Positions 43,767 to 64,000 are shown, numbered from the stretch's first letter. The stretch is DNA of 64,000 bases from Cyanobacteria bacterium FACHB-502 (GCA_014695325.1 JACJNZ010000015.1:1-64000), one strand, 5' to 3'. Notes: a model not told the origin generated them from the sequence alone. Numbers and translations are program-made.

Positions 43767-43804
43767 CATTGTCCCCTAAATTGCCCAGGCTGAGGGGCTT
43801 GGAC
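43767..43804 (+). repeat. Dispersed repeat, copy 3
   Basis: CATTGTCCCCTAAATTGCCC then GGCTGAGGGGCTTGGAC, between the photolyase and topoisomerase genes. Confidence 0.7.
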
Positions 43805-46405: not shown

Positions 46406-47119
46406 ATGAGTAAACAGGTTATTGATCCACGAATTGCTCGACGAAGTGATCGACGACGCGAAGCCGTAATTAATCCTCATCCCGACCCGATCACCGGAGA
46501 AACTGGATCGCACCCGATCGCAACTGGAATTGGGGCAGGAATTGTCGGCACAATCGGGATGCTGGTGGGTTCTGTGACGGGTCCGGTGGGAGCGATTGCA
46601 GGCGCGGCGATCGGCAGTATTTTGGGTGGATTAGTGGGTAAGAGTGCTGCTGAAGCCACCCATCCAACGATCGAAGATTACGACGTGCAGGTGATTGAAC
46701 CGCGCGATGTTCCCCGTGGAAGTGTTGCCTCGCATCGCCGAATTGAGCCTGTTTCTGTTCAAGCGGTTTATGCTTCTGGGGCCACCCCGCCAACGGTCGA
46801 GCAGTCCATTATTCATGCGGCGCTGCGCGGACGGAATTCTCTGGTTGCTAACGAAGATCAATACTGGCAGCAGCATTACACGGCACAGCCTTACTATCAA
46901 TCGGGGTTGACCTACCGGGATTACCAGCCTGCATATCGTCTGGGCTACGAAGGCTACACGCGCTATCACGGCACAGGCATGAGCTACGACGAAGTTGAAC
47001 CCGAACTTCAGCAGCAGTATGAGCAAGAGCGGCGATTGTCCTGGTTAGGTTGGGAGCAAGCCCGTCCTGCGGTGAGAGCAGGCTGGCATCGACTCGAGCA
47101 GGCATTTCGCGGTCGCTAA
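46406..47119 (+). CDS. Glycine-zipper protein
   Basis: This 237-residue protein has a glycine-zipper hairpin at about residues 36-78 (GIGAGIVGTIGMLVGSVTGP, GAIAGAAIGSILGGLVG), which inserts into or oligomerises at membranes. The C-terminal third has a bacterial repeat-like pattern of aromatic and acidic residues (YRDYQPAYRLGYEGY, then LGWEQARPAVRAGWHRLE) seen in many stress-related proteins of unknown function. Its stop overlaps the convergent glycosyltransferase stop by 3-4 nt. Confidence 0.85.
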   Translation: MSKQVIDPRIARRSDRRREAVINPHPDPITGETGSHPIATGIGAGIVGTIGMLVGSVTGPVGAIAGAAIGSILGGLVGKSAAEATHPTIEDYDVQVIEPRDVPRGSVASHRRIEPVSVQAVYASGATPPTVEQSIIHAALRGRNSLVANEDQYWQQHYTAQPYYQSGLTYRDYQPAYRLGYEGYTRYHGTGMSYDEVEPELQQQYEQERRLSWLGWEQARPAVRAGWHRLEQAFRGR

Positions 47120-48228
47120 TCCTTAGGACGAGGCACTTTCAATCGGGGAACTGGGGGACGATCGAGCAACTCTCGCCAGAGGGTTTCGTAGCGGCACGTC
47201 ATCGTTCCCACTGTGAAGTGAGCCAGAGCCGTATCGCGGGCTTGCTTGCCGAGCTGATGCCGAAATTCGGGATTGTCTCGCAGGCGTTTGAGCGATCGAG
47301 TTAAGCCGTCTACATCGTTTTTGTCGATCAGCAGCCCTGTTATCCCATCTTGAATCGCTTCCGGCATACTGCCAACTCGGGTTGCAATCACCGGACGCGC
47401 CGCCAGCATTGCTTCGACCATTGCCAGGGGAAACCCTTCCGATCGTGAAGGCATCGCCACCACGTCAAACTGGGGCAAATAAGACTGCGGGCGATCGACC
47501 CATCCTGGCATTTCCACTCGATCGCGAATGCCCAGATCGCTTGACAGCTTTTCCAGATTCGATCGTTCGCCTCCATCCCCCAAAATCACTGCCCGCACCT
47601 GAGGAACCTGCGCCACTGCCCGCAGCAAAATATCGTGTGCCTTCATCGCATCGAGTCGTCCGATACTGCCGACGGTGATTTGTGCTGGGTTCTGATATGC
47701 AGGCAACTCCGGTTCGCCCCCATCCGGCACCCCGTTAGGAATGGAAATCACGCTGTTTCTGCCCAGCGCGTAGAAATCTTCCATCTTAGTTGTGCTTGCC
47801 TGACCCACTGCCACATGAGCATCCGATCGCAAACAAAGGGCACGAGTTCGCCACAGGGTCAGCATATCCGTTGTCCGCAGGGGAAGCTGATCGACCCGCA
47901 CCACCCGCACCTTAGGTAAGGACAGAGCTGCAGCTAAACCGATCGCCCCCGCCCAGGGTGTACACAAGTTGCAGTGAATAATATCAGGATGTAGCTGTTG
48001 AAATGTGCGGCGATGTTCTAAGAATGCTCCTATACCAGAAGCAGGAAGAATAAAGCGATCGATCTCTGAACGACTCGCAGCAATAAAATGAACAACCTTT
48101 TCATCAACACCCACAACAGTCAGATGAATTTCTGAAGAAACGGTTGCAGCCAGATGCGATAAACTGATCTCCGCGCCGCCAATTCCCGCAGAGTCTGTAT
48201 AAACAGTGACGCGCAAAGGTGAAGTCAT
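47116..48228 (-). CDS. GT4-family glycosyltransferase
   Basis: This 370-residue GT-B enzyme is of the GT4 type: N-terminal DSAGIGGAEISLSHLA, IIHCNLCTPWAG, then the donor-binding half with VGSIGRLDAMKAHDILLRA, VEMPGWVDR and SRSEGFPLAMVEAMLAARPV (the E-x7-E motif) followed by VGSMPEAI. It adds a sugar from a nucleotide sugar to a growing glycan in the cytosol. It is the last gene of the twelve-gene island, 7 nt after the preceding glycosyltransferase. Confidence 0.92.
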   Translation of the reverse strand: MTSPLRVTVYTDSAGIGGAEISLSHLAATVSSEIHLTVVGVDEKVVHFIAASRSEIDRFILPASGIGAFLEHRRTFQQLHPDIIHCNLCTPWAGAIGLAAALSLPKVRVVRVDQLPLRTTDMLTLWRTRALCLRSDAHVAVGQASTTKMEDFYALGRNSVISIPNGVPDGGEPELPAYQNPAQITVGSIGRLDAMKAHDILLRAVAQVPQVRAVILGDGGERSNLEKLSSDLGIRDRVEMPGWVDRPQSYLPQFDVVAMPSRSEGFPLAMVEAMLAARPVIATRVGSMPEAIQDGITGLLIDKNDVDGLTRSLKRLRDNPEFRHQLGKQARDTALAHFTVGTMTCRYETLWRELLDRPPVPRLKVPRPKD

Positions 48229-48235
48229 TTCTCTT

Positions 48236-49444
48236 TCAACTCACATCGCGATAGATTTGCAAATGTTTCTCAGCGATATCTGACCAGGAAAAAGACTGGC
48301 TGAACTCACAACCCACCTGAGCAAGATTTTGACGCAGTGAAGCATCAGACAGAATATGAGTAAGCGCAATCGTTAATTCTTCAACGGAACGGGGAGGGAT
48401 AAAATAAGCGATCGAATCTGGCAATTCTGGATCAGGTGGACTTGCATAAGTCGCAATAACAGGAAGTTGATGCTGCATTAATGCCAGAAGCGAACCGCTC
48501 TTGAGCGTCACGCCATGATTAAAAGGTAAGACTCCGATATCTATACCTGATAAGTAGTCGGATACCGATCGCTCATCTAAATATCCGGTCATGTGAACGC
48601 TTGGTTGAAGTTGAAGAGAAGCAATGTGAGACTCTAATTTTTCCCAGTAGCGATCGGCTTCTGTACCTCGCAGTGCCAAACTTTCTACACCGCCGATCAG
48701 AAGCAGTTTTGCTCGCGGAATTTGAGTGATTACTTGCTGAAAAGCAGACAGCAGCGTTTCCAGTCCTTTTACCGGGTGCAGGAAGCCGAAAAACGCCACA
48801 AGCAGCGAATCGTTTGACCAGTTTAACCGCTGAAGAATTCGTAATTTTGCGTCGGTTTTATTGTGTTTTGCTTGCTCGATGTTGGGGGCGATCGGGATGC
48901 GATGGAGCCTTTCTTTTAGGGCAGGAAGCCGTTTAACGATCACTTGTTCTGCATCATGGTTTGTCGTAATTACGGCATCACTCAACGTGAGCAGAAAGCC
49001 GTCTTCCTCATCCCACCAGCCGCGCTGCTGTCCCCATTGCTTGAGGCGATCGAGCCACTGGGCAGGAAAATAGTCTGGCTCCCAGTTCCACCAGCCGTAT
49101 TCGTGAATGGTGGTGACAATCGGCTTGTGCCAGCACGTAAGCCGCAGCAGCAAAGGCAGCAGAAAAATCGATCGATCGAAGCCGTAGGTTCCCGCTGCGT
49201 GTTGCAGGTGCAGCAGGTCTGCGTCGGTTTGATGAACTGCCCGAACCAGGGAAAAAAGTTCGGTGATGTGCCAGCGATCGATCGCGCCTTTCACGGTTCG
49301 CTCACTGCCATTTGCAACCGATCGAGTGGTAAGGACGATCGACTCAACCCCGGATAGAGCCAACCTTTCGCGCAGATGCTGAGTGTAGTGTGCAACTCCG
49401 CAGCGATCGGGCTGGTAGGTTCCGGCAATCAGGGCGACACGCAT
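48236..49444 (-). CDS. GT4-family glycosyltransferase
   Basis: This ~402-residue GT-B enzyme has YQPDRCGVAHYTQHLRERLA at the N-terminus, LLHLQHAAGTYGF, IVTTIHEYGWWNWEP and a C-terminal donor domain with VAFFGFLHPVKGLETLLSA and HMTGYLDE. The usual E-x7-E region is diverged (GIDIGVLPFNHGVTLKSGSL), so donor or reaction may differ from standard GT4. The ATG at 49444 shares one base with the stop of the double-GT9 gene (TGATG), so translation is coupled; a TTG two codons earlier is the other option. Confidence 0.88.
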   Translation of the reverse strand: MRVALIAGTYQPDRCGVAHYTQHLRERLALSGVESIVLTTRSVANGSERTVKGAIDRWHITELFSLVRAVHQTDADLLHLQHAAGTYGFDRSIFLLPLLLRLTCWHKPIVTTIHEYGWWNWEPDYFPAQWLDRLKQWGQQRGWWDEEDGFLLTLSDAVITTNHDAEQVIVKRLPALKERLHRIPIAPNIEQAKHNKTDAKLRILQRLNWSNDSLLVAFFGFLHPVKGLETLLSAFQQVITQIPRAKLLLIGGVESLALRGTEADRYWEKLESHIASLQLQPSVHMTGYLDERSVSDYLSGIDIGVLPFNHGVTLKSGSLLALMQHQLPVIATYASPPDPELPDSIAYFIPPRSVEELTIALTHILSDASLRQNLAQVGCEFSQSFSWSDIAEKHLQIYRDVS

Positions 49445-51648
49445 CAGCAATTCTCCACAAAGGGAAGTTCAGATTCCAGAACAGGTTCCAGGACAGGTTT
49501 CAGAACAGAGAGGGCAGCCTGCACGATCGCTTCTGGCTCGATATCCAGACACTCCAGGTGGTAGGGACAGGCAAAGGCATAGCAGGGGCTACACACCGTC
49601 GGACGACGCAGCAGCCGAGAAGGACTATAGCGGGGTTGCCACTGGCACTCGTATTCGGTTCCGGCAAACATGACGACATTGGGCACTTGCAGCGCATCCA
49701 CGATATGCATGGTTGAAGTGTTGTTGGTCAACACCAGTTTTGCGTTGGCAATCAGGGCAACCAGTTCCGGCAGGGTTGTCATTCCCATCAGGTCAACCGC
49801 TCGATCACCCAAAATCGATAAAATCTCCTGCGATCGATCGCGGTCTTTTTCAACGCCGGTGACAATCACTGACCATCCGGTGAGGTCGCTGAGACGACGG
49901 GCAGCTTCCGCAAAACGATCGGGGGCATAGTTGCGCGACTGGCAAGTTGTCCATGGATTGAGCAGCAGGTAGGGTGTTTCAGCAGGGATGCCTCTGGTAT
50001 GCAGCAGATGAGCGATCGCGGTTTGTGCTTCTGGAGAAATGTGCAGCGACAGGGCGCGATCGGTGACGGTAAACCCGATCGACTCGACTAGCCGCAGATT
50101 GCGATCGACCTGATGAATTTCGTCGGGAGCAGGCGGAACAGCATGGGTGAGCGTTCCCAGATCGGTTTCTTTGGATTCGCCCAGTCGTAGAGGAATGCCT
50201 GCCAGCGCACAAATGAGAGCTGCCGGATGGGGACTCTGGCTAAAGCTAGTGAGAATGATGACAGCATCAAATTGCCTTTGTCGCAGCCTGTCGATCAAGT
50301 TCCATTCTCGTGCCGGGTCAAAGTCCAGCCGTCCGAGATCCTGCCACAGCACCCGCCAAGGCAATCCTGCATCAATCCAGGGCAGCAAAGGTTCCGTGAG
50401 CATTCCGCCTGGACTTGCCATCAGCGTAATCTTTGCATCAGGCAGATTTTCCCGCAAGGCACGTAGCGTTGGGGTTGTCATCATCACATCGCCGATGTTG
50501 TCCAGCCGCATCACCAGCAGATTCTTCACCGATCGCCAGTCAGAATTTGACTCCGTGGGGGAGGGGGGCAAGGGCGTTAAAGAGGCAATGGCTCCTAAAG
50601 GGGAACTGCTTCGCCTTGGATCAGGAGCTATTTCTTTGCAACGGGACAGCAGCGATCGCGCAGCCTCCAACACTTGCGCCGGAGTAATTTCATCCAGGCA
50701 GGTTTGCCATTCCAACGGACAGTTGCCGCTATACCAGCAGGCTTGCTCGGTGAAATTGTGAATTCGACGATCGCCGCACTGCGGATAGCCCTGAAGATTT
50801 ACATGGGGTTCCGGCTGCCCATAGCGTCCGTGCCAGGAAGGTCCAAATAAGGTGATAGTGGGCGCGTTGACTGCTGCCGCAATTCGCACGGGTCCGGTAT
50901 CCGCTCCGATGACCAGATCGGCAAACGAGAAAGCGGCTGCTAACTGCCGCAAACTACCCCGCTCCCAAAGTGAAACTTTGCCGTCTGAACCATTGCCACC
51001 TATTGCCTCTGCGATTTGCACTGTCTGATCGCGATCGGCTCCCACCACAATCTGAATCGATGCGCTGTACTGCTGCTGAAGGGCTTGCCCAAGCTGCACA
51101 AAATCAGCCTCCGCCCAGCGTTTGATTGCCATTCCCGCATCAATGCAGAAGAACACCAGTGGACGATAAGCTGCCCCGAGCTGCCGCTGTGCCTCCAGCT
51201 TCTCCGATACCGTCAGATGAAGCTCTGCCTGACGCTGCATCAACGCTGGCTGGATCAGTCCCTCTTGCTGAAGGATCGCCAAAAATCGATCGCTCACCAA
51301 TTCATTCTCAGGCGGCGATCGCCAAAGATTCGTGGCGACCTGCTCCGCGTTTGACTGCTGTACCGCTTCTGCAATGCCGTCATAGGTGGTATCCGTGACG
51401 ATAAGATCAAACGATTCGCTGGCAAGCAGGCGATCGAGCGAAGCTCTTGCCTCGCCCCGTGGTGCAATCACAACCTGATCGATCAGCGGATCGGTCTGCA
51501 AAAGCTGATCCCCAGGAGCAAAGGTGAGAACCGTGACACGAGCTGCTGGATGGGACTTTGCCAGTGCATGAATTGCAGGCAGCGCAATGATCAAATCACC
51601 AATGCCGCCCAGGAGTTCGATGAAGAGGATGCGGTAGGTGTCACCCAT
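49444..51648 (-). CDS. Double GT9 glycosyltransferase (two heptosyltransferase-like modules)
   Basis: This 734-residue protein carries two complete GT9 modules. Module 1 (about 1-335) has LLGGIGDLIIALPAIHAL, FADLVIGADTGPVRIAAAV and ITLFGPSWHGRYG. After a Pro/Ser-rich linker (about 345-370), module 2 (about 373-715) has MRLDNIGDVMMTTPTLRAL, NPWTTCQSRNYAPDRFAEAA, LVLTNNTSTMHIVDAL and VMFAGTE. GT9 enzymes are mostly heptosyltransferases using ADP-heptose. Each module has the N-terminal GDxxxxxP loop and the C-terminal donor region, so one polypeptide might add two sugars in turn. Confidence 0.92.
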   Translation of the reverse strand: MGDTYRILFIELLGGIGDLIIALPAIHALAKSHPAARVTVLTFAPGDQLLQTDPLIDQVVIAPRGEARASLDRLLASESFDLIVTDTTYDGIAEAVQQSNAEQVATNLWRSPPENELVSDRFLAILQQEGLIQPALMQRQAELHLTVSEKLEAQRQLGAAYRPLVFFCIDAGMAIKRWAEADFVQLGQALQQQYSASIQIVVGADRDQTVQIAEAIGGNGSDGKVSLWERGSLRQLAAAFSFADLVIGADTGPVRIAAAVNAPTITLFGPSWHGRYGQPEPHVNLQGYPQCGDRRIHNFTEQACWYSGNCPLEWQTCLDEITPAQVLEAARSLLSRCKEIAPDPRRSSSPLGAIASLTPLPPSPTESNSDWRSVKNLLVMRLDNIGDVMMTTPTLRALRENLPDAKITLMASPGGMLTEPLLPWIDAGLPWRVLWQDLGRLDFDPAREWNLIDRLRQRQFDAVIILTSFSQSPHPAALICALAGIPLRLGESKETDLGTLTHAVPPAPDEIHQVDRNLRLVESIGFTVTDRALSLHISPEAQTAIAHLLHTRGIPAETPYLLLNPWTTCQSRNYAPDRFAEAARRLSDLTGWSVIVTGVEKDRDRSQEILSILGDRAVDLMGMTTLPELVALIANAKLVLTNNTSTMHIVDALQVPNVVMFAGTEYECQWQPRYSPSRLLRRPTVCSPCYAFACPYHLECLDIEPEAIVQAALSVLKPVLEPVLESELPFVENC

Positions 51649-51662
51649 AGATCTAACACCAA

Positions 51663-52469
51663 TTAAATTGAAAGCAACTGTGGTGCATCATTATGCCGAT
51701 CGTGAATGGTTGTAGGAATCTCCTGGTGATACACGCCGGAGGGCATCACACCACAGCCACCGTAGGTAGACATGACTCGAAGCTGCGCCAATACGTCTTC
51801 GCCGCAGTGGTTTTCTGGCAGGTCACGCCAAAACTCGAAACTGCCCACGTTTAGCAATTTGGCCCGATCGTATAAAACGCAGCCGCCGATCCAGGCAACG
51901 CGATATTTGCGGGGGCGATCGGGCGTAATGTTATGCTGCTGCTGGACGTGATAGAGATTTGCGGCGTTGTGTAGTTTATATCGCTCCCATTGGGGCGTTC
52001 CCGATCGCACGATTTCTGGCTCAACTGCTCCTTCCCACCACTCCAAAATTTGCTGATGCGGACGGACATCCTGCTTGAAGCTTAAACCGATCACCGCCGA
52101 GCCGACAAAACCACACTGCTCCTGCTGAATCGTCTGCATGAGTAGCCCGATGACCCACGGTTCTAGAATGAGATCATCGTCCAGAAACAGCACATAGGGA
52201 GCCGTTGCCTGATCGAGGAGAAATTGCCGATGTTCTGCGAGGCCGCGCCGAGGTAGATGCCTGTGGGTGGCGATCGAATGTCCGTGTGCTTCCAGAACGC
52301 GCAGGGCTGCAATCACTTCTCCAGACTGGAATGTGTTGTTCGTTTCGGTTTGATCGGAAACAATCACGCGAAAATTAGTAAACGTCTGAGCGCACAGACT
52401 GGTTAACGTGACTGCTAAGGCAGCAGAACGATTACAGGTTGGAATCAGAACATCTAAAGCCGGATTCAT
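51663..52469 (-). CDS. GT2-family glycosyltransferase
   Basis: This 268-residue GT-A enzyme has LDVLIPTCNRSAALAVTLTS, the nucleotide-binding loop VIVSDQTE, PRRGLAEHRQFLLDQATAPY and the metal-binding LFLDDDLIL. A later acidic residue in ENHCGEDVLAQLR could be the catalytic base. There are no membrane helices. It lies 14 nt upstream of the double-GT9 gene. Confidence 0.9.
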   Translation of the reverse strand: MNPALDVLIPTCNRSAALAVTLTSLCAQTFTNFRVIVSDQTETNNTFQSGEVIAALRVLEAHGHSIATHRHLPRRGLAEHRQFLLDQATAPYVLFLDDDLILEPWVIGLLMQTIQQEQCGFVGSAVIGLSFKQDVRPHQQILEWWEGAVEPEIVRSGTPQWERYKLHNAANLYHVQQQHNITPDRPRKYRVAWIGGCVLYDRAKLLNVGSFEFWRDLPENHCGEDVLAQLRVMSTYGGCGVMPSGVYHQEIPTTIHDRHNDAPQLLSI

Positions 52470-52529
52470 AAAGACAATACAGAATGATTTCTAATTAACC
52501 AGCAAGAATACGATACTAATAATTTGAAA

Positions 52530-53645
52530 CTAACAAGGAATTAAAGAGCCAGTATCGATCGCAGGAGATATATCTACCTCAGAGAGCAATTCGATCGCCG
52601 CCTTAACGACATCATCGGGATCAACAAGTCGCAAACAGTGGTGATGTTCTTCAGGACAAACGCTCTTATAACAAAGGCGACAGGGAACTTCATGATACAG
52701 AACACGATTGGGAACACGCCAGGGAGTATGCTGAAGATTCGTTAGTGCATATAGGTCTACCACAGGCGTACCCACCGCAGCCGCCAAGTGAGCGGGTCCA
52801 GTGTTATTAGAAATAAGCAGTGGGGCGATCGACAACAACGCTGCCATCTCCGATAAATTGAGGCGATCGACCAGCGAAACAGAATTTGCCTGCATTTCCG
52901 TCTGGATGAACTGCACCAGTTCCCGTTCCGGCGTGGTTCCCGTCAAAATTACCTGCAAGCCGAATTCCTGCACGAGTCGCCGCGCTGCGATCGCAAACAG
53001 CTCGGGTGGATAGCGACGCGAAGGAGCCGTTGCCCCTGGATGAATCACGACCCACGGCTGCTGTAAATCTACCCCCTGAGCTGCTAACAGGTGGCGAACG
53101 CGATCGACTGCTTCTGCGGGGATCTGGAGCTTCATGCGATCGTCTTCGAGGCTGAAGCCAACACTGCTGACCAGATCAAGCTGTCGCTGTACCTCATGGC
53201 GAATCATCTGTTCCGGTTCCGGGTCTTTGATCCAGTTGGTGAGCAACTGATAGGAATTTTCGTGACAGTGCGCCAGCCGCAAAGGAATATCTGCCATGTA
53301 ACACAAAAACGCCGACGGCAAAGGATTTTGGCTGTAAACGGTAAAGATAACGGCAGCATCAAACTGCCTCGATCGCAGCCGCTCGATCATTTGAAATTCA
53401 GGCTGGCTATTGGGTCGTGGTGCGGTCGCTTTGAGCCAGGGAGCATCGTAAACAATCACGTCATCGATTTCGGGGATCAGGGGGGCGATCGTTGCACCGG
53501 CCTGAGAAGTCATTAGCGTGATTCGGCGAGGAGAATCAGAAGATGTTTTTAAGGCACGCATTGCAGGCGCAGTCATTAACACATCGCCGATCGAATCCAG
53601 CCGAACGCAGAGAATATTTTGGGCAGTGTTCCAGGAAATAGACAT
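52530..53645 (-). CDS. GT9-family (heptosyltransferase-like) glycosyltransferase
   Basis: This 371-residue protein is a full-length GT9 enzyme: VRLDSIGDVLMTAPAMRAL, VYSQNPLPSAFLCYMADIPL, WVVIHPGATAPSRRYPPELF (donor-side motif), LLISNNTGPAHLAAAVGTPV and a Cys-rich tail (CRLCYKSVCPEEHHHC) that might bind a metal, similar to module 2 of the double-GT9 protein. It follows the HldE gene by 33 nt, which supports ADP-heptose as its donor. Confidence 0.92.
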   Translation of the reverse strand: MSISWNTAQNILCVRLDSIGDVLMTAPAMRALKTSSDSPRRITLMTSQAGATIAPLIPEIDDVIVYDAPWLKATAPRPNSQPEFQMIERLRSRQFDAAVIFTVYSQNPLPSAFLCYMADIPLRLAHCHENSYQLLTNWIKDPEPEQMIRHEVQRQLDLVSSVGFSLEDDRMKLQIPAEAVDRVRHLLAAQGVDLQQPWVVIHPGATAPSRRYPPELFAIAARRLVQEFGLQVILTGTTPERELVQFIQTEMQANSVSLVDRLNLSEMAALLSIAPLLISNNTGPAHLAAAVGTPVVDLYALTNLQHTPWRVPNRVLYHEVPCRLCYKSVCPEEHHHCLRLVDPDDVVKAAIELLSEVDISPAIDTGSLIPC

Positions 53646-53678
53646 GGGAATGGAGTCAGGAATAGAACGGGGAATGAG

Positions 53679-55178
53679 TTAGCGATAAAGCTGGGGTGGA
53701 GATGGGGCAGCAGAAACAGAACGAATTTGCTCGATCGTGCGCGTGGTCGATCGATTTTCTACAAACGAGAGAATGTGAACAACACCGCCCAATTGCTCAA
53801 CCAGGGGAGCTTCCGGCAATGTTTCTCGCGTATAGTCTCCGCCTTTAACAAACACATTGGGGCGAATGATTTCAATCAAATGGTGGGGAGTCAATTCAGA
53901 AAAAGGAATCACATAATCCACGGATTCCAAAGCAGTTAAGACGGTGAGGCGATCGTCTAACGCATTCACAGGTCGCCCCATTCCCTTAAGCTGACGCACG
54001 CTTTCATCGCTGTTCACGCCGACAATCAGCACATCACCCAACGCTTTTGCCTGCTGTAGGTAAGTGACATGACCGGAATGCAGCAAATCAAAGCAGCCGT
54101 TGGTAAACACAATTCGTTTTCCAGCAGTGCGGTGTGCTTCAAGGCAGCGAACGATTTGAGCGCGATCCAGGATTCGCTTGTTTGATACCGCAGGACGATC
54201 GGGCTGGAACTGCTGCCGTAATTGATTCGCTGTGCAAACGCTGGTTCCAGTTTGCTGTACCACTATCTGCGTTGCTGTCTTGGCAATCTGAGCCGCGATC
54301 GACACCGAAGCCTGCGCCGCCAAACTCAATGCCAGAGCTGTAATAAACGTATCACCCGCCCCAGAAGTGTGATTCGCAGGCACAGGCTGAGCTGGAATCT
54401 GAATCGGAGAACTCCCCGTCTGAAATAAAACTGCGCCTTCGCTATCCAACGTTACCGCAACGATTTTCGCGCCTGTGAGTTCCAACAATCGATCGCCACA
54501 AGGCAAAACTTGAGCCACCCGATCGCCCTTCTGAACAGGCAGTTCGAGGAGGCGGATTGTTTCCCCATAATTCGGCTTGACTGCCGTAGGTTTGACGCGC
54601 TGATAATTCGCAAGCTGCTTGGAATCGATCACCAAAGTTCGATCGTGCTGTGCCTGTAATTGGGCGATCGTCTCAATTAATCGCGGCGTGAGAATGCCAT
54701 AGCCATAATCGGAGAGAATCACTGCATCCACTTGCGGAAAAAGCTGCGTCAGGCGATCGATTATCCCTGTTTCCAGCTCTGCTGAAATTGCCGCCGTGCT
54801 GCCCTGATCAAACCGCAGCAAAATCTGATTTTGTGACACAATCCGCTGCTTTGCCAGCGTCGCCCGATCGTGCGAAACGATCAAATGATTTCCCTCAAGC
54901 GATCGCTGCTGGAGGCTGTGCAAAAGCCGATCGCCTTCCGAGTCCTGCCCAATCACTGACAATAAAACTGGACGTGCCCCAAACGCTGCCACATTCGCCG
55001 CCACATTTGCCGCCCCGCCGGGAAAATCCTGTCGCTGATCAATCGCCACAACCGGGACTGGAGCCTCCTGACAAAGGCGATTCGCATCCCCAGCCAAATA
55101 CGCATCCAGCATAACATCGCCAACCACCAGGACGCTAAATGACGACCAGCGATCGATCGAAGAAAGCAAATCGTTCAT
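53679..55178 (-). CDS. hldE: HldE: heptose-7-phosphate kinase / heptose-1-phosphate adenylyltransferase
   Basis: This 499-residue bifunctional enzyme has an N-terminal PfkB-type kinase (about 1-320: DFPGGAANVAANVAAFGA, catalytic HTSGAGDTFITALAL) and a C-terminal nucleotidyltransferase (about 345-490: TNGCFDLLHSGHVTYL with HxGH, then VKGGDYT and the ENRSTT loop). It makes heptose 1,7-bisphosphate and later ADP-D,D-heptose. The ATG at 55178 overlaps the GmhB stop as ATGA; a TTG two codons earlier is less likely. Confidence 0.95.
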   Translation of the reverse strand: MNDLLSSIDRWSSFSVLVVGDVMLDAYLAGDANRLCQEAPVPVVAIDQRQDFPGGAANVAANVAAFGARPVLLSVIGQDSEGDRLLHSLQQRSLEGNHLIVSHDRATLAKQRIVSQNQILLRFDQGSTAAISAELETGIIDRLTQLFPQVDAVILSDYGYGILTPRLIETIAQLQAQHDRTLVIDSKQLANYQRVKPTAVKPNYGETIRLLELPVQKGDRVAQVLPCGDRLLELTGAKIVAVTLDSEGAVLFQTGSSPIQIPAQPVPANHTSGAGDTFITALALSLAAQASVSIAAQIAKTATQIVVQQTGTSVCTANQLRQQFQPDRPAVSNKRILDRAQIVRCLEAHRTAGKRIVFTNGCFDLLHSGHVTYLQQAKALGDVLIVGVNSDESVRQLKGMGRPVNALDDRLTVLTALESVDYVIPFSELTPHHLIEIIRPNVFVKGGDYTRETLPEAPLVEQLGGVVHILSFVENRSTTRTIEQIRSVSAAPSPPQLYR

Positions 55179-55801
55179 CGGCAAATCGGAGGGAGAGTGG
55201 ATGGAAAAGGGAACGAAAGAGAGAAATCAGAACGATCGATTGCGAGAATCACACGAGCAGCCGCACCCAAATCAGAAACAAGATGATGCGGTAAACGCTG
55301 TGGAGATAGCTGCCACTCGGTTTCATTACCGTTATCGATCAAGATAGTGCGACAACCCGCGGCACGTCCGGCAGCCACATCATGCAAAATATCGCCAATA
55401 AACCAGGACGTACTCAGATCAATCTGGTGATCCGCTGCCGCCTGAAGCAGCAAACCCGGCTCCGGCTTTCGACAGGAACAGTTTATCGTATACGGGGCGA
55501 TCGTTCCGTCTGGATGATGCGGACAATAATAAAACCCCGCTAACGGAATCCCAAACCGAGCAAGCTCCCCGGTGAGATGCTGTTGGACGATCGCCAGAGC
55601 CGTTTCCTCAAAATAGCCTCGTGCAATTCCTGACTGGTTCGTAATGATAAACAGCTTGTATCCCGCCTCATGGAGTCGTTGCAAGGCTTCGATCGCCCCT
55701 TCGCACCACTGAATTAAAGCCGGGTCAACGTTGTAGGGAACGTTCTCAATTAGCGTTCCATCTTTATCGAGAAAAACCGCTTTTTGAGGGAGAGTTTGCA
55801 T
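55175..55801 (-). CDS. gmhB: GmhB: heptose-1,7-bisphosphate 7-phosphatase
   Basis: From the ATG at 55801 this 208-residue HAD-IIIA enzyme has motif I FLDKDGTLIE (Asp12, Asp14), FIITNQSGIARGYF, the zinc-site pattern CPHHPDG with NCSCRKPEPG, and motif IV SWFIGDILHDVAAG. It removes the C7 phosphate from heptose 1,7-bisphosphate, the step between the two HldE activities. The frame is open up to 55987 but that part runs through a dispersed repeat and has no family match, so it is excluded. Confidence 0.94.
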   Translation of the reverse strand: MQTLPQKAVFLDKDGTLIENVPYNVDPALIQWCEGAIEALQRLHEAGYKLFIITNQSGIARGYFEETALAIVQQHLTGELARFGIPLAGFYYCPHHPDGTIAPYTINCSCRKPEPGLLLQAAADHQIDLSTSWFIGDILHDVAAGRAAGCRTILIDNGNETEWQLSPQRLPHHLVSDLGAAARVILAIDRSDFSLSFPFPSTLPPICR

Positions 55802-55869
55802 TGGCAGGTTGCTTTTTTTGATACTGCTAATTGAGTGAGCGGTTTGAGTCAGGGTTCCGGCGTTCCAGA

Positions 55870-55905
55870 TTGCCCCTAAATCCTTTAATTCCTGGAGGGC
55901 TTTGA
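55870..55905 (+). repeat. Dispersed repeat, copy 4
   Basis: TTGCCCCTAAATCCTTTAAT then TCCTGGAGGGCTTTGAAG, just upstream of gmhB. Confidence 0.7.
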
Positions 55906-56010
55906 AGTGGCTTAGCTTGCTTGGCGAACTCATAGAAGTGCCTTGTTGGGGGTTAGGCAAGAGTTTTCCTAACAGTCCTATTTTCACATTTGCAAGTTGC
56001 TCTTCTGAAT

Positions 56011-56045
56011 CTCAAAGCCCCCCCGAATTGGGGGATTTAGGGGGC
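56011..56045 (-). repeat. Dispersed repeat, copy 5 (inverted)
   Basis: CTCAAAGCCCCCCCGAATT then GGGGGATTTAGGGGG, the best-conserved copy, in the opposite orientation to copy 4 about 110 nt away. The two could pair as a long hairpin between the SDR gene and gmhB. Confidence 0.8.
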
Positions 56046-56079
56046 GGTGTAGAATCTCCAATGCGCTTTAAACAACCGC

Positions 56080-56805
56080 TTAGGGCCAGGAAGACTCCCG
56101 CATCGGAATCACTGTCACCTCTGGAATGACTGTTTCGGCAGGTTGCAGCAGCACATAGCGAATCGTGTCCGCCACATTGCGCGGATCTTGCAGCACATTT
56201 GGATCGAGCTCCGGAAATCGATCGAGCAAGAAAGGTGTTCTCATTCCGCCTGCCACGATCGCCGTTACCTTCACCCCATGCGGACGACCTTCAACGTGCA
56301 GCGCATGGCTCAAACCCATTAGTCCCCATTTACTCGCATGATAGGCAGATGCATTTGCCCAGGTCCGTTTAGCTGCCGTCGATGCCACATTCACGATATG
56401 CCCGCTGCCCTGCTGCTTCATGAGCGGAAAGACCTGCTTTGCCAGAATAAACGGAGCGCGTAAATTCACACTCAAAATTCGATCCCAATCATCGATCCCC
56501 ATTTCTTCGATCGATACCGTTAAATCCGTTCCGGCATTATTCACCAGAACGTCAATTTTGCCGTGCTGATCGATGATTTTTTGAATGCTGGTCTGAATCT
56601 GCTGCTCGTCTGTAATATCTAGCGACAAAGCATACGCCTCTAACCCGCGATCGCGTAGCTTTTGCGTCAACGGCTCTGCCAGATCCATCCGAACGTCCGC
56701 AGCAACAACGATCGCCCCCGCTTCTGCTAAACTCTCACAGATCGCAGCTCCCAAACCGCGTCCGCCACCAGTTACCAGCACTACTTTTCCAGTCAACGTT
56801 TCCAT
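56080..56805 (-). CDS. SDR-family oxidoreductase
   Basis: This 241-residue classical short-chain dehydrogenase has the Rossmann motif TGGGRGLG (12-19), NNAG (89-92) and the catalytic Ser142, Tyr155 and Lys159 (YHASK). It uses NAD(P)H. Its length and classical motifs differ from HldD, the ~310-residue extended-type ADP-heptose epimerase. Its place between the GmhA fusion and GmhB suggests it acts on a sugar of the same pathway, but this is an inference. Confidence 0.92.
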   Translation of the reverse strand: METLTGKVVLVTGGGRGLGAAICESLAEAGAIVVAADVRMDLAEPLTQKLRDRGLEAYALSLDITDEQQIQTSIQKIIDQHGKIDVLVNNAGTDLTVSIEEMGIDDWDRILSVNLRAPFILAKQVFPLMKQQGSGHIVNVASTAAKRTWANASAYHASKWGLMGLSHALHVEGRPHGVKVTAIVAGGMRTPFLLDRFPELDPNVLQDPRNVADTIRYVLLQPAETVIPEVTVIPMRESSWP

Positions 56806-56916
56806 TTCAATTCACTCCTATCAATTCGTCTCAAATTTATTCATTGCACAATCCACGATCGCCCCTCATCCCTTTATCTCCTCATCTCCTCACCCATCCA
56901 CCCCCTTATCCACCCT
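56806..56916. other. Spacer with CTCATCTCC low-complexity runs
   Basis: CCTCATCCC, CTCATCTCC and CCACCC words repeat from about 56862 to 56935 and reach into the last codons of the fusion gene. This is common intergenic filler in cyanobacteria. Confidence 0.55.
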
Positions 56917-58887
56917 TCATCCCCTCACTCCCCCAGCCTTCAACCCCATCCCTTCTACACTCGCCATCGTTCTCTCGTACTGCGGCGTTTCCCACTGTCC
57001 TAATCGAGCCGTTTCATTCGGGGCAGCAGCAAGCAATTGTTCCTCGATCAGTTCGCAGAGCAGGTGCATCACCATCAACTGCACTTCCTGAATGCGCTGA
57101 GTCTCGATCGCCGGAACCACGATCGCAATGTCTGCTAAGTGCCGCAGTTCACCACCCTCTCCGCCGAGTAGGGCGATCGTCGTCAGGTTTGCCCGTCGTG
57201 CAGCTTCAAATGCAGCAATCACGTTTTTCGATCGTCCGCTGGTACTGATGCCGATCAGCAGATCGTGCGGCTGGGCAAAAGTTTCAACCTGACGCGCAAA
57301 GATATTGTCATAGCTGACATCGTTTGCCCAGGCGGTGACAAATGCTGTGTCTGCTGTTAGTGCCATTGCCGGAAGTCCGGCGCGATGGGGACAGCAAAAC
57401 CGCCCAACCAGTTCGGCTGCCAAATGCTGAGCGTCTGCCGCACTGCCGCCATTACCGCAAATCAGCAGCTTACCGCCCCGCAGAAAGCAGTTGCTCATTG
57501 CCTGAGATGCCGCTTGAATTGTCGGACGCAGAAGCCGTTGCGATCGCTGCACTGCTTTGATCACCGTCTCAAAGCCGTGGTCAAGGATTGCCATCTGGTT
57601 TGCCTCGATGCCTGCCACGGTTGAAACCCCGCTCAGCACTTCTTCATACAGGGCTGCGACTGCGCTGGTCACTTTCTGCCAGGTGAAATGCTCCTGACTG
57701 CGGCGAATTGCTTGCCGTCCAAACAGGTTCCGAAGCTGCGGGTTGCCCAGAAGATGCTGAAGCCGATCGGCAAGGGCCTCAGGCTCATTGGGAGGAACGA
57801 GATAACCCGTTTCACCATCTTTCACCGTGAATTTAACGCCGCCCACATTTGCACCGATGACGGGTGTGCCGCAAGCCATTGCCTCGATCGGCGTAATGCC
57901 AAACGGCTCGTACCAGGGAGTAGTCACAAACACATCTGCTGCGCTGTAGTAATACTTCAGCACCTCCCGTCCCCGTCTGCCGACAAAGGAGATTCGCGTT
58001 GCCACACCCAATTCTTGAGCGATCGTGTTGAGTCGCCCAATCTCAGGTGTTAATTGCGGGTCAGGGGTTTCGGCTTCGCCGCCGACAATAATCAGTCGTG
58101 CTGCAACAGGCTGTTCCTGCTGCAATTGCGCTTTTTGCAACTGTTTCTTTTGTAGCTGTGCAAACGCCCGAATCACATTGTCCACGCCTTTTCGCGGAAC
58201 CATTCGCCCCAACTGCAAAATCAATGCTTCATCCGGCGGCAGTCCCAGCGTTAACCGGGCGCGGGTTTTGTCGATCGCCCAAAATTCCAACGGGTCAAAG
58301 CCACAGGGAATAATGCCGATGCGGCTGGGGTGAGCGTGATAGAGATTGAGCAAATCTTCCCGATCCTGCGGACATTCGGCGATGATATGATCTGCTTCCT
58401 GCACAACCCGATCTTCCACCGCAAAGCGATCGTCTGGAAACTGATCGGCATCACCCTGATACAGTCGCCGCACCCGTCCCAGCGCGTGAAACGTCACCAC
58501 AAACGGAATCCCTAAAACCCGTTTCATGTCTGCCGCAACCAGCGCAGACATCCAAAAATTTGCGTGAACCAGATCGTAGGATGTCTGGGAGTGACACCAA
58601 TCCACCATAAATGCGGTGAATTCGTTCATATACGGCAGCAGCTTTTCTTTAGGCATTGCCACCGCTGGACCTGCGGGAACATGAATGACACGCACGCCCT
58701 GTTGCCAATCCACGACTTCCGGCAAATGATCAGCATCACGACGCGTAAACACATCTACGTGATAGCCGATCGCCGCTAGATGCTTTGCCAACTGCCCCAC
58801 ATACACATTCTGTCCACCGCTATCGACACCGCCAAAGATGCCAAGTGGCGTTGCATGTTCGCTAATGAGTGCAATTCGTTTGGTCAT
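56917..58887 (-). CDS. Fusion: GT4 glycosyltransferase + GmhA sedoheptulose-7-phosphate isomerase
   Basis: This 656-residue protein has two enzymes in one chain. Residues 1-420 are a GT4/sucrose-synthase-like glycosyltransferase (GGVDSGGQNVYVGQLAKHL, LGRMVPRKGVDNVIRAF, YEPFGITPIEAMACGTPVIG with Glu327 and Glu335). Residues ~435-620 are a SIS-domain GmhA: CGNGGSAADAQHLAAELVGR with Glu492, GISTSGRSKNVIAAFEAAR, and RIQEVQLMVMHLLCELIEE with Gln600 and His608, the positions used for catalysis in E. coli GmhA. GmhA makes the first heptose intermediate from sedoheptulose 7-phosphate. A short polar tail (621-656) follows. Confidence 0.93.
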   Translation of the reverse strand: MTKRIALISEHATPLGIFGGVDSGGQNVYVGQLAKHLAAIGYHVDVFTRRDADHLPEVVDWQQGVRVIHVPAGPAVAMPKEKLLPYMNEFTAFMVDWCHSQTSYDLVHANFWMSALVAADMKRVLGIPFVVTFHALGRVRRLYQGDADQFPDDRFAVEDRVVQEADHIIAECPQDREDLLNLYHAHPSRIGIIPCGFDPLEFWAIDKTRARLTLGLPPDEALILQLGRMVPRKGVDNVIRAFAQLQKKQLQKAQLQQEQPVAARLIIVGGEAETPDPQLTPEIGRLNTIAQELGVATRISFVGRRGREVLKYYYSAADVFVTTPWYEPFGITPIEAMACGTPVIGANVGGVKFTVKDGETGYLVPPNEPEALADRLQHLLGNPQLRNLFGRQAIRRSQEHFTWQKVTSAVAALYEEVLSGVSTVAGIEANQMAILDHGFETVIKAVQRSQRLLRPTIQAASQAMSNCFLRGGKLLICGNGGSAADAQHLAAELVGRFCCPHRAGLPAMALTADTAFVTAWANDVSYDNIFARQVETFAQPHDLLIGISTSGRSKNVIAAFEAARRANLTTIALLGGEGGELRHLADIAIVVPAIETQRIQEVQLMVMHLLCELIEEQLLAAAPNETARLGQWETPQYERTMASVEGMGLKAGGVRG

Positions 58888-59035
58888 AGGTGTCTTAAGA
58901 GAATAGGGTGAAGATTCAGAAACGGATTTCGGATTGATGACTGGGTTAAAATTGATGACTGGCTTAAATGATTGAGTGGAACCGAGCGATCGGGTGAAGA
59001 AGTTTGAGAGATGCTTGAAGCGTGTGAGCGGTACG

Positions 59036-59071
59036 TTGCCTCCTAAATCTTCTAGTGCTGGGGAGCTTTGA
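59036..59071 (+). repeat. Dispersed repeat, copy 6
   Basis: GTTGCCTCCTAAATCTTC then TGCTGGGGAGCTTTGAAG, between the fusion gene and the next glycosyltransferase. Confidence 0.65.
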
Positions 59072-59078
59072 AGCCGGA

Positions 59079-60083
59079 TTAGGCTCGGTTCCCCTCCAGA
59101 ATCGACTTGCCAGAGCGGTGGCTCGAATTGAAACCTCCTTTCAAACTCATTGCCTGTTCAAACGCCGCATTCCAATTGCGGACAAATCGCTCGATCCCAA
59201 AGCGCGATCGTGCCTGTTCTTTGGCTCCCTGGCTCAGTCGATGGGCAGCTTCGGGGTTATCGATTAGCATTTGCATTCGATCGACTAAGGCATTCACGTT
59301 AGTATCCACAAATCCAGACACATCGTTTTCCACGACCGTTGCCAGTTCTGTTGTTGCCAGCCCCACGATCGGCATTCCCAGCATCATTGCTTCACAAACT
59401 GCTAATCCCAGGCTGGTATAGCGCACCGGATGAAAGAAAAAACGATATCGCGCTTCAAACGCAGGAAGCTGAAGATGCGTGACTTCACCAATGCCGCCCA
59501 GCGATTCTGCGTCCATGCCGACTAAATCGAGGGGGATCGATCGCTTCACCTGCTCAAAAATATCTGCGCCCAGCCGTCTACCGCGCTTCCGCAAACCGTT
59601 CGCTACCACGATCCCGCGCGGTAATTCTCCGGTGTAGGTAACCCGATCAGGAACAACGACACCATGCTCAACAACACAGGTTGGGGTGCGGTTGTTCTGC
59701 CACATCAGTTGATTGAAATGGGTGACGTGAACCAGCAGCGTTTCCGGGTCGTCTACCCAGTGGGCGGTATCGGTGGGCTGTTCGCGAGGTGGGTCATGTT
59801 CCAGATACAGGCGCGGCAAATCTCGCTGTGCTTCGGAAAGAATGTCGTACTGATCTTCCTGGTAATTGCGGCGCGACTGAAACAGAATACAGTCAAACTG
59901 CTGATGCTGCACTTCCTCGGCGGGAATATCATGCACATTCTCACCCCAGGGAAATCCGCCCAGCCGTCCGCCGTATCCTTCAGGTTTGCCCGGCTTGACA
60001 GGCAGATAGAAATCGTGGGGAGCCTGAGTCAGATAATACAAATAGCTGCCGTGAACGTGCCAGGTGAGAATTTTCAAACGCAT
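59079..60083 (-). CDS. GT4-family glycosyltransferase
   Basis: This 334-residue protein has an N-terminus with ILTWHVHGSYLYYLTQAPHD, a middle with CVVEHGVVVPDRVTY and a donor domain with FHPVRYTSLGLAVCEAMMLG, then VGLATTELATVV and NDVSGFVDTN. The E-x7-E motif is reduced (one Glu in VCEAMM), but the fold is GT4. It lies between the half-GT9 gene and the GmhA fusion. Confidence 0.88.
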   Translation of the reverse strand: MRLKILTWHVHGSYLYYLTQAPHDFYLPVKPGKPEGYGGRLGGFPWGENVHDIPAEEVQHQQFDCILFQSRRNYQEDQYDILSEAQRDLPRLYLEHDPPREQPTDTAHWVDDPETLLVHVTHFNQLMWQNNRTPTCVVEHGVVVPDRVTYTGELPRGIVVANGLRKRGRRLGADIFEQVKRSIPLDLVGMDAESLGGIGEVTHLQLPAFEARYRFFFHPVRYTSLGLAVCEAMMLGMPIVGLATTELATVVENDVSGFVDTNVNALVDRMQMLIDNPEAAHRLSQGAKEQARSRFGIERFVRNWNAAFEQAMSLKGGFNSSHRSGKSILEGNRA

Positions 60084-60132
60084 AGTGAATCAATCGTGAA
60101 TCAAATTTAACCAAAACCATCAGGAAAAACAG

Positions 60133-60666
60133 TTAAGCCATCGCTGTATCAGCCGGCTGCACCGGGAAAGAAGAAGACGAAATCAAATGAATCGTCTGAG
60201 CAGGAATCAAATTAACCGATCGCAGCAAATGAAGCTGATACTCCAGAGCATCAACCGGATCAAGCGGCGGCTTAACGCAGTGTGACAAAACCCCACCGCC
60301 AAACTCACAGGACTGGCCCACACGAATCGGAATGCCTGCAAGATAGCAACAGTATGCTATGAGATAAGGAGACTGTTGCGGCAGGGTGAATACGATCGCA
60401 GCATCAAACGATCGCGCTTTAAGACTCTGAATCAGACTGCTTGCGTGATCGGTCAGATCGAAAAAAGGAGAAGGAAAAGGAATCAGATCTAGCGTGGCAA
60501 GCTGTTGATCAAATAACGAATCTGGAAATGCGGCAAGAACAGAAATGCTAGTCTCCGGCAGGCTTTGCTGAAGCAGCGGCAAACTTTGAATCAATTCAGA
60601 TTGACTGTCCTGATCCAAAAGACTCACCAAGAGAAGCCGCTTGACGCGCTGCCAATCAGGATGCAT
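60133..60666 (-). CDS. Half-length GT9-like protein (N-terminal domain only)
   Basis: This 177-residue protein aligns with the acceptor-side half of GT9 enzymes in the same island: VKRLLLVSLLDQDSQSELIQ (the loop that is normally GDxxxxxP has lost its Gly-Asp), FDAAIVFTLPQQSPYLIAYC and AGIPIRVGQ. It stops where the donor-binding half would begin. Its start overlaps the upstream GT9 stop by 11 nt. It could be a decayed enzyme or a protein that helps a partner GT9. Confidence 0.8.
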   Translation of the reverse strand: MHPDWQRVKRLLLVSLLDQDSQSELIQSLPLLQQSLPETSISVLAAFPDSLFDQQLATLDLIPFPSPFFDLTDHASSLIQSLKARSFDAAIVFTLPQQSPYLIAYCCYLAGIPIRVGQSCEFGGGVLSHCVKPPLDPVDALEYQLHLLRSVNLIPAQTIHLISSSSFPVQPADTAMA

Positions 60667-61720
60667 AAGACACCTCCTCGATGTGCAGCAAATTCAACGC
60701 TTCCCGCAAAACTTGCATCGGCGTTGCTGGCGGATACAGATGGGCATTTTCCAGCGACGGCATCACCACAATTTTGTGACGATCGCGATCGAGCGGTGCC
60801 CAGCGATGCGGTTCAGACTGCGAGAAAATTACCACACTTTTGACCTGAACTGCTGCCCCTAAATGCGAAACCCCAGTGTCGTTACAAATCAGCAAGCCTG
60901 CCTGCTGCAATAGCAACGCGAGTGCCCCCAAACTCGTTTTTCCTGCCAGGTCAATTGCTGGATACTGCATTGTCTCTGTCACTTTTTGAGTTAGCCCTTT
61001 TTCATCAGCCGTTCCCGTCAGCACAATCTGAAAATCCTGAGCCGCCAACGCATCCGCAACGACAGCAAAATGCTCGCAGTTCCAGCGGCGATCGGCGGTA
61101 CTGGCTCCCGGATGGATGCAAATGTAGGACTTCGGGCGAAGCTGATAAGCTTTCAAAATAGTGTTGCACTCGTCGCGATCGGCAGCAGTGATAGGAAACT
61201 CCAGCGATTCTCCCTGCGTAGCAAGGCCCAAAAACTTCAGCAAATGGAGAGGTCGCTGCACTTCAGGCAAATGCTCTGGGTAGGGCAAAAACCAGTCGAT
61301 ATGGGGGCAGAACTGCCGCTGCGGAAAAAAGCCTGCCGTGCGTTTTGCACCCAGCAGCAGCGTAAAGCTATTCATTGCCGAACCGTTGCCGTGCATTTGT
61401 AGTGCCAGATCGAACGGCGCCTGCTGCACCTGCTGCATAAAAGCGATCGTCTGCTCTGCTACAAAAGGCACTTCGGGAATGCCAGGATAGCCGGGAAACT
61501 CCAGCCAGCGATCGAGATAGGCACTGAATCGCTGCACAAACGCCTTTGTCCAGGGCAGCCCAATCAACGTAATCTCTGCGGCAGGAAACACCGATCGCAA
61601 GGCACGAAAAGCAGGCACACTGCACAGCAAATCGCCTAATCCCGGCAGCGCACGTACGATCGCAATTCGCTGGGGGGCAGGGTCATCAAATTGAAGATGT
61701 CCACTGATCAAAGTCTCCAT
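60656..61720 (-). CDS. GT9-family (heptosyltransferase-like) glycosyltransferase
   Basis: This 354-residue GT9 enzyme is the first gene of the island: VRALPGLGDLLCSVPAFRAL, LALQMHGNGSAMNSFTLLLG, ICIHPGASTADRRWNCEHFA and LLICNDTGVSHLGAAVQVKS, with SEPHRWAPLD near the end. It differs from the other GT9 members in the acceptor half, so it probably acts on a different acceptor. The promoter of the island should lie in 61721-61900. Confidence 0.92.
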   Translation of the reverse strand: METLISGHLQFDDPAPQRIAIVRALPGLGDLLCSVPAFRALRSVFPAAEITLIGLPWTKAFVQRFSAYLDRWLEFPGYPGIPEVPFVAEQTIAFMQQVQQAPFDLALQMHGNGSAMNSFTLLLGAKRTAGFFPQRQFCPHIDWFLPYPEHLPEVQRPLHLLKFLGLATQGESLEFPITAADRDECNTILKAYQLRPKSYICIHPGASTADRRWNCEHFAVVADALAAQDFQIVLTGTADEKGLTQKVTETMQYPAIDLAGKTSLGALALLLQQAGLLICNDTGVSHLGAAVQVKSVVIFSQSEPHRWAPLDRDRHKIVVMPSLENAHLYPPATPMQVLREALNLLHIEEVSYAS

Positions 61721-62614: not shown

Positions 62615-63838
62615 TTATCGGTAGCTATTTTGACTTTGAAGCGATCGAAGTAACAGACACAGCCGCATCTGCACCGCATCGTCAAACTTTCTTGGCTCCA
62701 ATCCGGTTAGCGAAGCAATTTTATCAAGCCGATAGCTGAGTGTATTGCGGTGAATTGATAGCTGCTTTGCAGTTGTAGAAGGACAGCAGTTTTCAGCAAA
62801 GAAGGTGTTTAACGTAACCAATAATTCAGGCTCATGATCGAGCGGACTGAGTAGATATTTAGCGAGATCAATCTTCGTTTCTTCGTCTGCAACGCCCACA
62901 AAGGCAGCAATCCCCAACTCACCCAGGCAATGGACTTGATTATCGCCCTGCAATCGCTTTCCTAAAGACAGGGCGGCCCCTGCATCTTCATAAGAGCGTG
63001 CCAGTCCCCGCACGCCGGGATGATATCGACCAATGCCAACATTAATCGTCGCGCCCATGTCGTTTCTGAGCCGCAGCAACAGCGCATCCGCCGCCCGCTT
63101 GAGAGCCGCTAAATTTGCCCAGGAAGAACTCAATCCTTCAGCCACATCGTTACAGTCTGCCCACAGCCCCAGGTTTTTGCTGTTGCTGGCTTTTAAGACT
63201 GCTACTTCGCCTTCACCCAGATAAGCGCAAATCGTGTCATTCGGCAGGTGAAAAAAGCTAACAATACTGCTAATCACGACCTGTGCCCGTCGCTGCTCAA
63301 TCTCAACTGCTTCCATCCCCGAAGCATTCATTTGAGGCAAGATATAACAGGCAGCATCAATGAGAATCACAGCCCTGGGTGGAGACAAATCAATCCCCAA
63401 TCGTTTTGCTCGATTCCAGATGATTGTTTCATCCTCAATGCGATCGTGTAGCAGATCGTCGATTAATTCATTCTTGAGTTCATGTTGACTTGGAAGATGA
63501 TGCTGTGTGGATTGATTAATCACCAGTTCAACCAATGCTTGAGCAAGGCGAGGAGAAATCATTTCACGATCGGCAGGCTTGCCAACAATTACTTCTCCGG
63601 TTTCGGTGTCATGCTGTAGCGGAATTCTGAGGAAATGAGACAGTGCCTGTTTGCCGTCCCAGTTGCTTGCCTCGCAGTTTCCCAAAGGAGTAATCGATCG
63701 CCCAACTCGGTCAGGTTCGCTGCTCGTGACAACCACTCCTCGTTCATTCGTGACAAAAACAGGAGCATAAAGCAGTTCTGCAACGCGATCGGTGACAACG
63801 CTGGCAAGCTGCACAAAACGGCTAGAGGTTTGAATCAT
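62615..63838 (-). CDS. CdaR/PucR-type transcriptional regulator
   Basis: From the ATG at 63838 this 407-residue protein has an N-terminal sugar-diacid-recognition-like domain (about 1-130: LYAPVFVTNERGVVVTSSEP, DRVGRSI, ALVELVINQ), a central GGDEF-like domain (about 170-290) with VGIGRYHPGVRGLARSYEDA, and a C-terminal helix-turn-helix of the PucR type (KQLSIHRNTLSYRLDKI). E. coli CdaR activates diacid sugar (glucarate, glycerate) genes; the targets here are not in the window. An earlier ATG at 63865 is possible. Confidence 0.88.
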   Translation of the reverse strand: MIQTSSRFVQLASVVTDRVAELLYAPVFVTNERGVVVTSSEPDRVGRSITPLGNCEASNWDGKQALSHFLRIPLQHDTETGEVIVGKPADREMISPRLAQALVELVINQSTQHHLPSQHELKNELIDDLLHDRIEDETIIWNRAKRLGIDLSPPRAVILIDAACYILPQMNASGMEAVEIEQRRAQVVISSIVSFFHLPNDTICAYLGEGEVAVLKASNSKNLGLWADCNDVAEGLSSSWANLAALKRAADALLLRLRNDMGATINVGIGRYHPGVRGLARSYEDAGAALSLGKRLQGDNQVHCLGELGIAAFVGVADEETKIDLAKYLLSPLDHEPELLVTLNTFFAENCCPSTTAKQLSIHRNTLSYRLDKIASLTGLEPRKFDDAVQMRLCLLLRSLQSQNSYR

Positions 63839-64000
63839 GAATGCGTTGTGGCTAGGAATTCCCATTGCAGAAAACAAAACGTGAATTAGATTTAGAAGTC
63901 GCTGATTACTCGGCAAGAAAACTGCTTGGCAGGGAGAATAGAGTACGCCGCAGAAATCAAAAACTAAATCTGAATCACGAAAAAATATTGAAGGAACCTT
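63839..64000. promoter_or_regulatory. Upstream region of the CdaR-type gene
   Basis: The last 162 nt hold the leader and probably the promoter of the regulator. No other gene is seen before the window ends. Confidence 0.4.

Follow-up and report, generated by a model that had tools for sequence, protein, structure and literature searches.

Heptose is taught as a sugar of the lipopolysaccharide (LPS) core, and cyanobacteria as bacteria without heptose. Cyanobacterial LPS is generally reported to lack both heptose and 3-deoxy-D-manno-octulosonic acid (Kdo) (PMC4515613, PMC4390846), an exception being that of Spirulina platensis, for which heptose was reported (PMC4515613). In Streptomyces coelicolor, a "putative cell wall glycan" operon, cwg, is controlled by sigma-E. 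The phosphoheptose isomerase is the eighth and a bifunctional synthase/transferase the ninth gene of this operon (SCO6179-6190; PMC5839063), which is induced by vancomycin, partly via sigma-E (PMC6767563), and whose first gene is raised by salt (PMC13011467). Here we analyzed a 64,000-nucleotide stretch of DNA from Cyanobacteria bacterium FACHB-502 (GCA_014695325.1 JACJNZ010000015.1:1-64000), referred to below as the window, in which an earlier note had described a dedicated ADP-heptose and glycosyltransferase island of twelve minus-strand genes at positions 47116-61720. The twelve open reading frames were confirmed, Pfam and NCBIfam assigned them to the same families as the note had, and the domains and key motifs support the description. 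The note's remark that LPS in this lineage is poor in heptose agrees with the same two papers (PMC4515613, PMC4390846), save for S. platensis.

The island was found to comprise a GT4-GmhA fusion, GmhB, HldE, four GT9 genes (one double and one N-terminal half), three other GT4 genes, a GT2 gene, and a short-chain dehydrogenase/reductase (SDR) gene. We consider it reasonably probable that it represents, in cyanobacteria, a cwg-like cassette spread across phyla, which supplies ADP-D,D-heptose and assembles a heptose oligosaccharide other than the LPS core, probably destined for the envelope. Across phyla, gene content, gene order, and domain identities define a core, GT9-GT4-[GT4.GmhA]-SDR-GmhB-HldE-GT9, which, with losses and moves, recurs in Nitrosospira, Nitrospira, Bacteroidota, Chloroflexota, Acidobacteriota, and Planctomycetota and, unfused, in Streptomyces, which has no outer membrane. 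The heptose island of this cyanobacterium is real, as the earlier note had claimed. It forms a single branch of a cassette present in several phyla, however, and is not a cyanobacterial peculiarity; an island restricted to cyanobacteria was rejected on these grounds.

The unfused version, a row of twelve genes in a Streptomyces plasmid cluster (L157), provides the connection to cwg. Its order is epimerase, carbamoyltransferase, glycosyltransferase, HAD phosphatase, GT9, glycosyltransferase, MshA-like GT4, SIS, HldE, GT9, and two glycosyltransferases, and the adenylyltransferase domain of its HldE scored over the curated cut-off. Seven of these genes (GmhB, GT9, GT4, MshA-like GT4, GmhA, HldE, and the second GT9) match window proteins at 30-52% identity. 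GmhB sits at a different place in the two loci; with SDR and GmhB set aside, the run GT9, GT4_d, MshA-like GT4, GmhA, HldE, GT9 is common to both. By position, the twelve genes of L157 agree with those reported for SCO6179-6190, with the isomerase eighth and HldE ninth. The island itself resembles cwg in that a phosphoheptose isomerase is followed by a bifunctional HldE-type enzyme, with transferases on both sides. In contrast to the island, cwg and L157 have GmhA as a separate gene and include a carbamoyltransferase and an epimerase; L157 has no half GT9, double GT9, or PucR regulator, and cwg is associated with an envelope-stress sigma factor whereas a PucR-type regulator lies beside the window island.

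Activation of heptose by the predicted island enzymes is well supported. The adenylyltransferase domain of HldE passed the curated cut-off (TIGR02199, 200.5 versus 181.5 bits), and two GT9 proteins exceeded the TIGR02195 cut-off of 134.6 bits (Table 1). Scores were strong but below the cut-off for the HldE kinase domain (TIGR02198, 268 versus 345 bits), GmhB (PRK08942, 153 versus 178 bits), and GmhA (PRK13936, 205 versus 276 bits). The motifs of HldE, GmhB (including the zinc motif), and GmhA were all present, and for each of the three the PDB contains a relative with the expected function. No HldD match over the TIGR02197 cut-off was found in the 12 genomes tested, implying that the heptose of the cassette would be D-glycero-D-manno-heptose. 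The island shares GmhA and a GmhB-type phosphatase with the GDP-heptose capsule pathway (GmhA, WcbL/HddA, GmhB, WcbM/HddC), but it would activate heptose through the adenylyltransferase of HldE, and its GmhB scores higher against the beta-type than against the alpha-type model. Where hldE was missing from the local cluster, all seven genomes tested carried an adenylyltransferase over the cut-off elsewhere; the cassette therefore accompanies ADP-heptose capacity there, and a loss of heptose activation was rejected for these genomes.

Comparison of gene order across cyanobacteria showed that the order is kept in relatives. Another 16 genomes of the family show it, either in full or truncated where a contig ends, which is far beyond chance. 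Of 36 genomes in the family, 17 carried the GT4-GmhA fusion; in the class, 43 of the 291 genomes sampled did so, across six families. Strains with the cassette include Fischerella sp. PCC 9431 and Chlorogloeopsis fritschii PCC 6912. A PucR-type regulator often adjoins the island in the family genomes, and in some loci (L083, L090, L094, L095, L097, L100, L102, L104, L105, and L129) it lies between GT9_e and GT4_d. We suggest that this PucR/CdaR-type protein is probably a dedicated regulator of the island. A promoter scan returned sites no more frequently than in shuffled sequence, and a search of the accessible literature found no publication on the cyanobacterial island.

To look beyond the family, 84,980 species genomes were scanned using an alignment of the fusion; this gave 304 relatives, the best 80 of which were examined. 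Among cultured strains these included Nitrosospira, Nitrosovibrio, Nitrospira moscoviensis, Parapedobacter, Mucilaginibacter, and Chryseosolibacter, and among metagenome bins, whose labels can err, Chloroflexota, Acidobacteriota, Planctomycetota, and Methylomirabilota. Plasmids, when searched, contributed loci from Burkholderia, Paraburkholderia, Arthrobacter, Nonomuraea, and Streptomyces; within the stretch read, the Burkholderia and Paraburkholderia loci showed no GmhA or HldE. A carbamoyltransferase gene was observed next to the cassette in Bacteroidota, Chloroflexota, and Planctomycetota copies (L137, at 16049-18734, L148, L118, and L093) and also in Streptomyces and Paraburkholderia; the window's island has none. 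In one quick tree of uneven composition, built from the concatenated GT4 domain, GmhB, and GT9_c, all cyanobacterial rows formed one clade together with L108, from a bin labeled Chloroflexaceae (SH-like approximate likelihood ratio test [SH-aLRT], 96), suggesting that L108 is probably misbinned. Nitrosospira and Methylobacter joined Bacteroidota (SH-aLRT, 100). These groupings fit a single origin within the cyanobacteria and transfer between phyla elsewhere.

In the mechanism that we propose, the cassette enzymes would make ADP-D,D-heptose, and the GT4 domain of the fusion, the second core GT4, and the GT9 enzymes would assemble a short heptose-containing oligosaccharide, distinct from a Kdo-heptose LPS core, whose sugar order and acceptor are a matter of conjecture. 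This oligosaccharide would most likely be destined for the cell envelope, exported by machinery encoded elsewhere, with the PucR-type regulator probably controlling the cassette. The earlier note inferred that the product is perhaps a surface glycan or a secreted heptoside, and our results do not discriminate between these two.

The island was also compared with the LPS core pathway (GmhA, HldE, GmhB, and HldD, with WaaC and WaaF). The two have in common the activating enzymes and GT9, with two island GT9 proteins over the heptosyltransferase II cut-off. They differ in that the island has no HldD over the cut-off, has its GmhA fused to an MshA-like GT4, and holds all of its genes in one cassette, and in that the cyanobacterial hosts tested lack the Kdo transferase. 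The latter (PF04413) was found neither in the window's genome nor in 11 further cyanobacterial genomes that carry the cassette; it was present in 6 of 12 other genomes searched, and the model was positive in Escherichia coli, Caulobacter, and Bacteroides. These cyanobacteria therefore lack the acceptor to which core heptose is normally added, and a standard Kdo-heptose core was rejected for them, the transferase being missing in 12 of 12 cyanobacterial genomes that have the cassette. That the cassette finishes the inner part of the LPS core, either replacing or extending a core without Kdo, would accord with the GT9 scores and with the heptose reported in Spirulina LPS (PMC4515613), but with no Kdo transferase in these genomes and a homologous cluster in Streptomyces, which has no LPS, we regard it as very improbable. 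The presence of many glycosyltransferases from several families in one island, together with the known variability of cyanobacterial O-antigens (PMC4390846), could instead indicate that heptose enters the repeat unit of an O-antigen or exopolysaccharide, with export through a Wzx/Wzy or ABC system whose genes lie outside the island. However, domain searches and hydropathy analysis of the twelve island proteins revealed no initiating phosphoglycosyltransferase, Wzx/flippase, Wzy/polymerase, ABC exporter, or transporter, and the core is conserved across phyla whereas repeat-unit loci vary, so that a repeat unit appears quite doubtful to us.

The GT4 half of the fusion raises another alternative, namely, that the heptose oligosaccharide or heptoside is soluble and not linked to a lipid, whether intracellular or secreted, and that this domain acts on a small phosphorylated acceptor as MshA and sucrose-phosphate synthase do. 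Its closest relatives in the PDB are MshA and the cyanobacterial sucrose-phosphate synthase Tll1590; both use sugar or inositol phosphates, and the domain is fused to an enzyme producing a sugar phosphate. Its score is below the MshA equivalog cut-off (297 versus 462.5 bits). Four residues were taken to be the acceptor-phosphate positions of MshA: the two cationic ones are kept in the fusion (K80 and R154), whereas the two hydroxyl ones are replaced by F111 and A135 in nearly all of the 14 aligned copies. Because two are kept and two replaced, a small anionic acceptor is possible for this GT4. By simple hydropathy analysis, neither the island nor the Streptomyces cluster encodes a multi-span membrane protein, which would also suit a soluble product; two island glycosyltransferases had a single weak hydrophobic segment each, compared with five segments in a major facilitator superfamily control. 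GT9 enzymes of known function, in contrast, act on lipid-linked or envelope acceptors, and cwg is described as an envelope system. We think a soluble product unlikely, and give a little less credence still to its more specific form, a previously undescribed heptose oligosaccharide or heptoside that is begun on a sugar phosphate by the fusion and serves as a protective metabolite common to diderm and monoderm bacteria of many phyla.

The preferred interpretation, a cwg-like cassette for an envelope oligosaccharide, also has several points to its disadvantage. ADP-heptose is not necessarily the substrate of every GT9 enzyme, and the isomerase, kinase, and phosphatase scores all fall below their curated cut-offs. 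With no carrier, flippase, polymerase, or phosphoglycosyltransferase in the island, its anatomy gives no envelope destination. The match between L157 and cwg is one of position and published product names, and the genomic surroundings lend a stress role weak support.

The coordinates of the island genes and the adjacent regulator are given in Table 1. The earlier note had described many of the genes as overlapping; overlaps were found at only 3 of the 11 junctions, the remaining gaps being 7 to 191 bases.

Table 1. Genes of the heptose island and the adjacent regulator in the window
Feature	Coordinates	Strand	Evidence
GT4_a, GT4 glycosyltransferase	47116..48228	-	Pfam Glycos_transf_1 E 1.3e-36; gene order
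GT4_b, GT4 glycosyltransferase	48236..49450	-	Pfam Glyco_trans_1_4 6e-16; retained in many cyanobacterial copies
Double GT9, two GT-B copies in one protein	49444..51648	-	C-terminal copy heptosyltransferase II-like; TIGR02195 164.3 bits, over cut-off
GT2 glycosyltransferase	51663..52469	-	Pfam 1.5e-17
GT9_c, heptosyltransferase II-like GT9	52530..53645	-	TIGR02195 136.6 bits, over cut-off; PDB 3tov, 1psw (heptosyltransferase II)
HldE, predicted heptose 7-phosphate kinase and heptose 1-phosphate adenylyltransferase	53679..55184	-	TIGR02199, TIGR02198, motifs; PDB 5x9q, 4e84
GmhB, predicted heptose 1,7-bisphosphate 7-phosphatase	55175..55987	-	PRK08942; Zn motif CxHH...CxC; PDB 2gmw E 5.5e-33
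Classical SDR	56080..56805	-	Pfam adh_short 5.3e-56
GT4-GmhA fusion	56917..58887	-	TIGR03449 297 bits, PRK13936 205 bits; PDB 6kih, 3c48, 2xbl; 14 aligned copies
GT4_d, weak GT4-like glycosyltransferase	59079..60083	-	Pfam 1.2e-10; 33-91% identity across relatives and phyla
Half GT9	60133..60666	-	Conserved place and motifs common to other GT9s
GT9_e, GT9 glycosyltransferase	60656..61720	-	Pfam 3.2e-32; TIGR02201 82.9 bits, below cut-off
PucR/CdaR-type regulator	62615..63916	-	Pfam HTH_30 1.9e-18, GGDEF_2

Within the fusion, the MshA/sucrose-phosphate-synthase-like GT4 occupies residues 1-425 and the GmhA domain, a predicted sedoheptulose 7-phosphate isomerase, residues from about 440 to 620. 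GT4_d, GT9_c, and GT9_e belong to the cross-phylum core. GT4_a occurs in only part of the family, and a few relatives have it relocated to the end of the island near PucR; both copies of the double GT9 stand side by side in most cyanobacterial loci, and the GT2 gene is present too in the Nitrosospira and Methylobacter copies. No specific PDB relative was found for the SDR, which was not seen in the Bacteroidota copies. The true start of GmhB is probably near codon 63 (about 55801), because similarity to the solved GmhB begins there.

The half GT9 consists of the N-terminal domain only; the catalytic GD motif has been lost, and no Pfam or NCBIfam match of its own was obtained. A half-length GT9 reading frame with a common motif is nevertheless retained in about 30 cyanobacterial loci, and in L091 and L120 a longer GT9 reading frame occupies its slot. 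This retention disfavors a pseudogene remnant; the gene looks like a conserved pseudoenzyme, and our guess is that it serves as a non-catalytic partner.

Topoisomerase IB, BON, and glycine-zipper proteins are encoded beside the window island, and single neighborhoods of other copies hold DUF892, BON, PRC-barrel, Mn-catalase, STAS, or CsbD genes. When 110 flanking and 110 control proteins were tallied, DUF892, PRC, BON, and STAS were each found twice in the flanks and not among the 25 control families listed, a count in which single control members may go unseen, part of the control regions came from short contigs, and the tallied families were those first noticed in these same loci. This offers a hint only of a stress role for the cassette. 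The bacterial topoisomerase IB gene, at 43924-45069, adjoins the island and is also nearby in L053, L054, L057, and L058. Elsewhere in the window, the predicted products included a deoxyribodipyrimidine photolyase-related protein (DPRP family; 42120-43769), a phytochrome-like histidine kinase with two GAF domains (23921-26848), leucine-rich repeats with a protein kinase domain in one reading frame (12148-13521), and a protein with four putative peptidoglycan-binding domains (9765-11099).

If the island is indeed the cyanobacterial branch of a cwg-like cassette, ADP-heptose would have a second, widespread use beyond the LPS core, extending from cyanobacteria to Nitrosospira, Bacteroidota, and Streptomyces. 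The cassette family appears to be much wider than the range that we found described for clusters of the cwg kind, and cwg, long known and, as far as our literature search showed, chemically unsolved, would be linked to this larger family, so that a structure solved in any one member would inform the whole. ADP-heptose and other heptose metabolites are reported as innate immune signals (PMC10269868), and given such signaling, it is of wider use to establish which bacteria that lack a heptose core are able to produce these metabolites.

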